A stretch of DNA of 42,015 nucleotides, from assembly GCA_028720145.1 (NCBI GenBank), contig JAQYLJ010000028.1:1-42015 (forward strand). Reading direction: 5' to 3'. How positions within the stretch are numbered: the stretch's first letter is position 1; each line of letters begins with the position of its first letter. This document shows positions 1 through 6,251 of the stretch, one piece after another. The position numbers and the translations under genes are program-made. Below the pieces are notes generated by a model. The model was given only the letters and a program-made list of their open reading frames with translations, searched no databases and had not been told where the DNA came from. This DNA comes from Clostridia bacterium. Lineage in GTDB: Bacteria; Bacillota; Clostridia; Oscillospirales; CAG-272.

Positions 1-207
1 TGGCTAAAAGTGATATGCAAGGGGCTTGCGTTATATTTCGGCTTTCAGCCGAAGTTATATTATATTTGCCTTAGCTTCTCTCGAAGAGAGAAATATCACT
101 TTGCTTAAAGCAAAATATCACGCCGCAGGCATATAACTTGCCGTAAGGCAAATATAGTTGCGGCGTAGCGATAATCCCTATCGCTACGCCGCCAAATCGG
201 CTGTTTT
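1..207. repeat. Dispersed tandem-hairpin element, copy 1 (left end cut by window)
   Basis: Aligns with 5983-6189. Successive hairpins: GCAAG-ggg-CTTGC (17-29), TTCGGCT-ttc-AGCCGAA (37-53), TTCTCTC-gaa-GAGAGAA, TTTGC-ttaaa-GCAAA, TTGCC-gtaa-GGCAA, and a 14-bp stem GCGGCGTAGCGATA/TATCGCTACGCCGC (160-192). Linkers are GTTATATT/ATATAACTT. Confidence 0.9.
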
Positions 208-4699: not shown

Positions 4700-5832
4700 T
4701 CTATCTCGATAACGCGGCGACCTCGTACCCCAAACCGCGCGTCGTCGAACGGGAACTCCTGCGGGCACTCAAAAAGTACCCGGGGAACCCCGGCAGAGGG
4801 GGGCACCGTCTCTCACTCGCCGCCGCCGAGACGGTGTTCCGTGCCCGCACGGCTGTCAAAACCCTGTTGCATGCCGAAAACGAAGAGCAAATTATCTGGA
4901 CGCAGAACGCAACTTTTGCAATCAACACGGTTTTGCGTGCGCGGGTCGAAGCGGGGATGCATATTCTGCTCTCCGACCTCGAACACAACGCCGTGTTCCG
5001 CCCGATTCATCGGCTCTCGCTGGACGGAACCGTCACCTACACGATTTTCCCGCATACGGGGAATGTCATGGAATCACTCGAAACCCTCGCGCGTGAGAAT
5101 ACGCGGATGCTGTTCTGCACCCATATCTCCAATGTGAACGGCTATGTGATGCCGGTCGAAGAGATTGCCGCGTTTTGTAAATCTCGCGGCATCTACTTTG
5201 TACTTGACGCATCCCAAAGTCTCGGGCACCGCGAAGTGACGGTCGACCGCATCCCCTGTGATGCGCTCTGTGCGCCCGGGCACAAAGGTCTGCTCAGTAT
5301 CCAAGGGTCGGGCTTTCTCTATGTGCGCTCGAAAGAGGGGCTACGCGATGTCTTTCAGGGTGGGAGCGGGTCTCACTCGCTATCCCCGAAAATGCCGCAG
5401 GACCTGCCCGATCTGCTCGAACCCGGGACGCTCTCGACCCCGGCTATCGGCTGCCTCGGCGCGAGTGTGCGCTATCTGCTCTCGCACGGGGTCACGGAAG
5501 CGGAGGCGAAGGAACAGGCGTTCAGCCGCCGCATCCATCTCCTGCTCTCCGAGATGCCGCGCGTAGAGTTATTTTCACAGCCGAACACGGGAATCGCGGC
5601 ATTCCGCGTCCCCGGAGTCTCCTCGGACACCATCGCGACCGAACTGAACCGCCGCGGGGTATGTGTTAGGGGCGGCTATCATTGTTCTCCCCTCGCCCAC
5701 CGCGCGCTCGGCACTCTCGACACGGGGCTTGTACGGCTCTCGGCGGGTATGTATTCGACCGAAAAGCAAGCCGAGAAAACCGCAAGGTACCTGCGGGAAA
5801 TCTTAGCGGACCTGCCTATCAGAAACCGATAA
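4696..5832 (+). CDS. Aminotransferase class V / cysteine desulfurase family protein
   Basis: MIYLDNAATSYPKP, PLP-lysine region DALCAPGHKGLL, active-site-Cys region VRGGYHCSPLAHRALGT. ATG at 4696 overlaps the upstream stop. Confidence 0.93.
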   Translation: MIYLDNAATSYPKPRVVERELLRALKKYPGNPGRGGHRLSLAAAETVFRARTAVKTLLHAENEEQIIWTQNATFAINTVLRARVEAGMHILLSDLEHNAVFRPIHRLSLDGTVTYTIFPHTGNVMESLETLARENTRMLFCTHISNVNGYVMPVEEIAAFCKSRGIYFVLDASQSLGHREVTVDRIPCDALCAPGHKGLLSIQGSGFLYVRSKEGLRDVFQGGSGSHSLSPKMPQDLPDLLEPGTLSTPAIGCLGASVRYLLSHGVTEAEAKEQAFSRRIHLLLSEMPRVELFSQPNTGIAAFRVPGVSSDTIATELNRRGVCVRGGYHCSPLAHRALGTLDTGLVRLSAGMYSTEKQAEKTARYLREILADLPIRNR

Positions 5833-5890
5833 AACGAAAAACAGGAGGTGAAAATGGCGTTTCCCATAGGGAATTTTTAGTTCACAACAA

Positions 5891-6189
5891 AAGTATAGCA
5901 CACTATACTTCACCAAAGGTGAAATGTAGTGTGCTTTTCTTATCCACAAAAGAATTAAAATCAAGTTATATTTTTAGCCTTATGGCTAAAAGTGATATGC
6001 AAGGGGTATGCGTTATATTTCGGCTACGCCGAAGTTATATTATATTTGCCTTAACTTCTCTCGAAGAGAGAAATAACACTTTGCTTAAAGCAAAATATAA
6101 CTGCCTAAGCAATATAACTTGCCGTAAGGCAAATATAGTTGCGGCGTAGCGATAAATCCCTATCGCTACGCCGCTAAGCCCCCTGTTTT
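5891..6189. repeat. Dispersed tandem-hairpin element, copy 2
   Basis: Same array as 1-207: TTTTAGCC-ttat-GGCTAAAA (5972-5991), TTCGGC-tac-GCCGAA (6019-6033), TTCTCTC-gaa-GAGAGAA (6056-6072), and others, ending in GCGGCGTAGCGATA-aatccc-TATCGCTACGCCGC (6141-6174). Lies between convergent genes. Confidence 0.9.
5897..5941 (+). terminator. Terminator-like long hairpin after the DUF3343/desulfurase operon
   Basis: AGCACACTAta-c-TTCACC-aaa-GGTGAA-a-tgTAGTGTGCT followed by TTTTCTT. Confidence 0.65.
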
Positions 6190-6251
6190 TTCTGTGCAAT
6201 CGATTCTTCAAATGATTTGTATTGTGATTTGTTTTTGAGAACCTGTTTGTT

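Follow-up and report, generated by a model that had tools for sequence, protein, structure and literature searches.

The closest described relatives of the locus reported here are the intervening sequences (IVSs) found in the 23S rRNA of Coxiella and Leptospira. IVSs replaced the tetraloops of rRNA helices, and the Coxiella IVS contains an S23 ORF with three tandem heptamers upstream (PMC4990558). A Xanthomonas S23 homologue is reported to form a toroidal pentamer of four-helix bundles (PMC4990558). The function and origin of IVSs have been called unclear, and for both IVSs and S23 the question has been open for decades (PMC4990558). A second described relative is Gut-1 (Rfam RF01706), which was catalogued as restricted to the human gut and as most likely a stand-alone ncRNA (PMC2864571). 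In the open-access subset of the literature that we searched, no report linking terminator insertion, Gut-1 arrays and S23 was found.

A dispersed multi-hairpin element and its match to Gut-1

The window, that is the whole stretch of 42,015 nt analysed here, is contig 28 of a 1.9 Mb MAG (the source genome, 97.8% complete). It contains an element of 317 nt flanked by two convergent protein genes. From the comparison of copies with unrelated flanks, the element begins at about 5858-5861 (TTCCCATAGGGA...) and ends at 6177 (...CGCTAA); the outer flanks differ in every copy and these two ends are common to the copies. The element is thus as real as the initial annotation held, and its limits move from 5891-6189 to about 5861-6177. 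We place it on the minus strand, which is the sense orientation of both Gut-1 and the S23 genes described below.

From left to right, the element consists of a 39-nt long hairpin with a T run after it (5897-5935, helix 1 of the copy comparison), seven short hairpins and a terminal 14-bp hairpin. The short hairpins 1 to 3 (helices 2 to 4) lie at 5971-5992 (TTTTTAGCC-TTAT-GGCTAAAA), 5999-6011 and 6019-6033 (TTCGGC-TAC-GCCGAA, with compensatory changes). Hairpin 4, at 6056-6072 (TTCTCTC-GAA-GAGAGAA, helix 5), also shows compensatory changes and marks the centre, where the orientation of the linkers flips. It is followed by hairpin 5 (6080-6094, helix 6), the short hairpin 6 (6102-6111), which aligns poorly among copies, and hairpin 7 (6119-6132, TTGCC-GTAA-GGCAA, helix 7). 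The right terminal hairpin (6141-6174, loop AATCCC, helix 8) has double changes in 8 pairs. The near-identical linkers of 7-9 nt read GTTATATT/GTGATATT to the left of the central hairpin and AATATAAC to its right. The hairpin run, the central palindrome, the right stem and the dyad symmetry of the linkers had all been described correctly from the letters of the window; we count seven short internal hairpins in addition to the long left one.

The element folds far beyond chance on either strand, with MFEs of -131.7 and -133.0 kcal/mol (z = -9.2 and -11.8 against shuffles). Its structure is under constraint: the 13 copies that are complete or nearly so have 95% of their stem cells paired, with changes on both sides in 14 pairs (40 cells), whereas slid controls pair in only 32-45% of cells and none of 500 shuffles matches the observed covariation.

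The source genome holds at least 14 copies of the element family, many of them at contig ends, and at least 5 copies are found in the genome of a sister species in the same genus (G060). The initial annotation had called the element dispersed with two copies in the window. Dispersal is confirmed, as is the second copy (1-195, minus strand), whose left part is removed by the contig end; the genomic count, however, exceeds two. Matches to a DNA pattern scan came only from Clostridia/Oscillospiraceae-type gut MAGs and uncultured bacteria.

The element also has a named relative, contrary to its first description as a member of an unknown family. The second window copy scores 53.6 bits against Gut-1 (88-160, minus strand), above the gathering cut-off of 50, and the copy under study scores 41.0 bits (6068-6141, minus strand), below it. 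In the whole source genome there are 23 Gut-1-like hits at E<0.001, 6 of which exceed the cut-off. The hits correspond to the three-hairpin end of the arrays, and the model covers 77 nt of the 317-nt element. Some weaker hits come from arrays with other linker dialects (AGTGAAGTT/AACTTCACT and ATGAATTG/CAATTCAT). While Gut-1 was described as a human-gut-only ncRNA, the hits here fall within a mobile element that is dispersed in the genome, and we reinterpret the catalogued ncRNA as three hairpins of this larger unit. Another repeat of the source genome (L043-L045 and L047-L050), in which hairpins are linked by AACTTCACTT between GGCGGGAGCAAGCCCCCGCC units, is weakly Gut-1-like, and the split terminator described in the next section was not seen there.

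Insertion into terminator loops

For most copies, the left and right flanks, which are unique to each, together make up a single intrinsic terminator, one arm on either side, so that the element sits in the terminator loop. In the window, AAAAACAGGAGG (5837-5848), downstream of a gene that ends at 5832, pairs with GCCCCCTGTTTTTT at 6178-6191, the position of the right terminator half (GCCCCCTG plus TTTTTT), and the MFE fold closes the element with these arms on both strands. The second copy is followed by its own right terminator half, CGGCTGTTTTGTTTTT, at 198-213. Further arm pairs are AAAAAAGGAGC/GCTCCTTTTTTT, AGAGCCGCC/GGCGGCTCT and AAGTCGGA/TCCGACTTCTTTTTT in the source genome and AAAACAGGCGGAGC/GCTCCGCCTGTTTT and CAGAAAAGCACCCC/GGGGTGCTTTTCTG in G060.

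Permutation of the partners shows that the pairing is specific. For 12 copies of the source genome and G060, the mean duplex energy with the own partner is -22.5 kcal/mol compared to -17.6 kcal/mol for permuted partners (0 of 10000 permutations). The 48 elements of the Clostridia set give -15.4 compared to -12.8 kcal/mol (again 0 of 10000). Weak or no flank pairing is seen for two copies (G60c and C8) and for around 30 of the 48 in the Clostridia set, partly because the left end falls outside the fixed left window of the test. Because the arms are not the same from one copy to the next and each pairs solely with its own counterpart, we reject the possibility that they are part of the element. 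Among 63 elements of the Clostridia set, the share of T is highest, at 65-76%, in the region 12-18 nt past the right hairpin, after a G+C-rich stretch, which fits the 3' half expected of a terminator.

An orthologous site is found both filled and empty. On contig 55 of the source genome, a copy lies 3' of a glycyl-tRNA synthetase-like gene (glyS). In G060, the ortholog (83% identity) has an uninterrupted terminator behind it, ACGGGCTGCCGC-GTTTT-GCGGCAGCCCGT, and the array is also absent from the glyS 3' end in 20 further congeners. Taken together, the flank tests, the fold and the empty glyS site reveal the IVS trait of a hairpin whose small loop is replaced or extended by an insert with complementary flanks. 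Dispersal, insertion into terminator loops and presence or absence at an orthologous site are shown for this family, and the initial suggestion of a non-autonomous mobile element holds. Residence in terminator loops would be a way for a mobile element to avoid harm.

As a whole, the element folds into a multi-hairpin unit complete in itself, and the flanking arms can re-pair around it. Insertion would be tolerated for this reason: the element would lengthen the terminator hairpin as a branched rod and leave termination intact. Read from the sequence, the left end ATAGGGA(T/A)TTT, of which ATAGGGA occupies 5866-5872, is complementary to the right-hairpin loop AAATCCCTAT. Relatives keep this complementarity with other letters (CTAAAGGACA/TGTCCTTAGG, TTAACGGAG/CTCCGTTAA and TCCTAATGAGAAGT/ACTTCTCATAAGGA), and complementary element ends of 10-15 nt are observed in copies and relatives. 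Such pairing between the left end and the loop may draw the two ends of the element together.

S23 genes behind the arrays

Besides the split terminator, a second feature goes beyond the initial annotation: elsewhere, the same arrays are followed by an S23/IVP gene. In relatives, arrays lie immediately 5' of a PF05635 (23S_rRNA_IVP) gene, on the Gut-1 strand, and Gut-1 hits are located within the S23 leaders of several dialects. PF05635 genes, whose product is a four-helix-bundle protein, are present in 47 of 59 relatives with up to 7 copies each. The source genome has four; three of these, on contigs 39, 35 and 10, are preceded by arrays, each in a dialect of its own, and the solved structure closest in sequence to its S23 is 2rld. 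At 27 S23 loci with sufficient flank, the median fold z is -4.9 upstream of the gene compared to -0.5 downstream (Wilcoxon P = 0.0005).

The S23 loci fall into three groups. In the first, three S23-carrying loci (L107, L112 and L114) have split terminators with exact inverted flank matches of 11-16 nt. They run in the order terminator half, right hairpin, array, S23, cargo ORF and terminator-like hairpin, followed on the far side by an end whose letters can pair with the loop of the right hairpin, and lastly by the second terminator half. When the element and one copy of a 3-nt repeat are removed by eye, perfect terminators with the tetraloops GAAA, ATAA and ATTT are restored; the 3-nt repeat (the last 3 loop bases) is an apparent target duplication seen by eye in these three loci only. 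In the second group, S23 elements come directly after complete tRNA terminators or after the end of an rRNA-methyltransferase gene. Many S23 elements are placed like this, behind a complete terminator of a tRNA or gene instead of within a split one. For example, L095 (contig 35), L120 and L123 are found where an rRNA-methyltransferase-like gene ends, and the first hairpin of the element overlaps the codons for a conserved HVESV/HVETV C-terminus. On a human faecal 'phage' scaffold (L304, MT835815.1), S23 and its array come right after a tRNA-Arg terminator.

The third group has no hairpins, and inverted short repeats lie on either side of S23. Inverted tandem heptamers surround S23 in other phyla (Nostoc, Treponema, Bernardetia, Euhalothece and Monoglobus). 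At 39 loci, 236 inverted 8-mers are common to both sides of S23 compared to 41 in swapped pairs (0 of 20000), and among lags 3-14 only lags 7 and 14 stand out. Long heptamer runs beside S23 genes were also noticed in Treponema, Bernardetia and Euhalothece plasmids (L302, L305 and L307).

The S23 ORF is absent from the window copies and present in relatives and in the three array-led copies of the source genome. The long hairpin at 5897-5935 takes the place of the gene and terminator hairpin of S23-carrying relatives. Since the ends are shared with S23 elements and the long hairpin replaces the gene block, we read the window element, from its sequence, as a putative internally deleted, non-autonomous copy. 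S23 is not obligatory in each element, as most copies are without it: of the 60 arrays in the Clostridia set that lie away from contig edges, only 2 have an adjoining S23. S23 may therefore be either cargo or a factor that need only be supplied in trans. In two loci (L146 and L153), small ORFs resembling membrane proteins stand in the place of S23, which suggests exchangeable cargo.

The family has several traits in common with the 23S rRNA IVSs. Its larger members carry the S23/PF05635 gene, the insert sits at the tip of a hairpin (for IVSs, the tetraloop of rRNA helices; PMC4990558), its flanks are complementary and enclose it in a longer stem, and tandem heptamers adjoin the S23 ORF (PMC4990558). 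Nonetheless, the element lies outside rRNA, between two protein genes, with relatives in terminators or after tRNAs; its linkers are spaced by perfect hairpins; it occurs in tens of copies, gene-less ones included; and its S23 is on the strand opposite the T run of the terminator.

Routes of movement and rival explanations

We consider it probable that the window copies are non-autonomous members of an IVS-like mobile family that inserts at the hairpin tips of intrinsic terminators. S23 would bind the linkers or hairpins of its own element, in the transcript or in single-stranded DNA, and would be needed for mobility, so that gene-less copies such as those of the window would be mobilised in trans. 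A wider and more tentative proposal is that the 23S rRNA IVSs could be the rRNA-trapped members of a large unrecognised S23-encoding family. This family would have inverted heptamer dialects with or without hairpins, would target stem-loop tips, terminators above all, and would move with the involvement of the S23 pentamer and with no known transposase or reverse transcriptase.

The route of movement is narrowed by the enzymes that were searched for. Reverse transcriptase (RVT_1) gave 0 hits in four array-bearing genomes, all incomplete MAGs, and retro-mobility by a resident reverse transcriptase, as for a group II intron or another retroelement, was rejected. Given this negative result, movement would more likely proceed at the DNA level, on extruded or lagging-strand hairpins. 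Mobility in trans by an IS110 bridge RNA was likewise rejected, as DEDD_Tnp_IS110 gave 0 hits in the source genome and G060. The lack of detectable RVT_1 and Y1_Tnp, the RAYT transposase, makes both retro-mobility and RAYT action unlikely. Since two rve-type transposase genes are present in the source genome and RVT_1, Y1_Tnp and the IS110 DEDD gene were not detected there, the main rival is a conventional transposase acting in trans.

Under this rival, the element would be an ordinary MITE, the non-autonomous form of a DNA transposon, on which a conventional (DDE) transposase would act in trans, with S23 as cargo or as a passenger regulated by its leader. The inverted complementarity of the ends, the variable cargo, the short (3-nt) apparent target duplication and the two rve genes are all in keeping with it, and certain IS elements are described in one report as targeting palindromic REP sequences (PMC1525189). 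S23 could indeed be cargo, as most arrays of the Clostridia set have no adjacent S23 and some carry other small ORFs. The element is, like bacterial MITEs and REPINs, small, dispersed, non-autonomous and strongly structured; it differs from them in its split-terminator target, its many hairpins and dialect linkers, and in having no identified transposase partner or Y1 gene. Elements of the IS1397 type also insert into palindromes, but they carry a transposase and target REP repeats, whereas the element targets diverse terminators and has none. Moreover, no transposase-bearing element with these ends appears among the loci read, two array-carrying genomes (G028 and G058) have no rve match, and a passenger role would not explain why arrays in many unrelated dialects are repeatedly followed by PF05635. 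Accordingly, we hold the MITE explanation to be unlikely.

The family could instead be a functional, vertically kept RNA, with Gut-1 acting as a trans-acting ncRNA or as a 3'-UTR stabiliser or bidirectional terminator element. The strongly conserved fold with compensatory changes, the position at gene 3' ends between convergent genes and the listing of Gut-1 by its describers as a likely stand-alone ncRNA (PMC2864571) speak for this reading, and the structured ncRNA had been among the first suggestions for the locus. It is very improbable in view of orthologous sites that differ between species in the presence of a copy, of many dispersed copies with unrelated flanks, and of arrays that break into an already complete terminator.

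Another early suggestion, a REPIN-like element, would imply REPIN/BIME-like palindromes that depend on a RAYT (Y1) transposase for their movement. These share the palindromic, intergenic and multi-copy character of the element, yet this reading can be dismissed almost entirely: the defining Y1_Tnp has 0 hits in the source genome (which refutes it there, unless a RAYT lies in the missing 2%) and one sub-cut-off hit in four genomes, and with its 8+ hairpins, its dyad linkers and the split terminator around it, the element does not look like a REP pair. As already stated at the outset, the locus is not a CRISPR array, its units being palindromic hairpins of irregular length with mirror-image linkers.

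The IVS-like reading has practical consequences. With many copies per genome, empty sites, gene-less copies and varied cargo, the movement of IVS-like elements can be studied in these genomes. The family also accounts for recurrent assembly breaks in gut Clostridia MAGs, whose assemblies break within these repeats: contig ends lie inside elements at position 1 of the window and on contigs 7, 15, 26, 29, 38, 51, 58 and 61 of the source genome. Several flanks at these ends pair across contigs (left of contig 7 with right of 15, left of 15 with right of 58, left of 38 with right of 51, and left of 26 with right of 61), which we read as assembly breaks or recombination among copies. Terminator halves can be matched across broken contigs, which could aid scaffolding.
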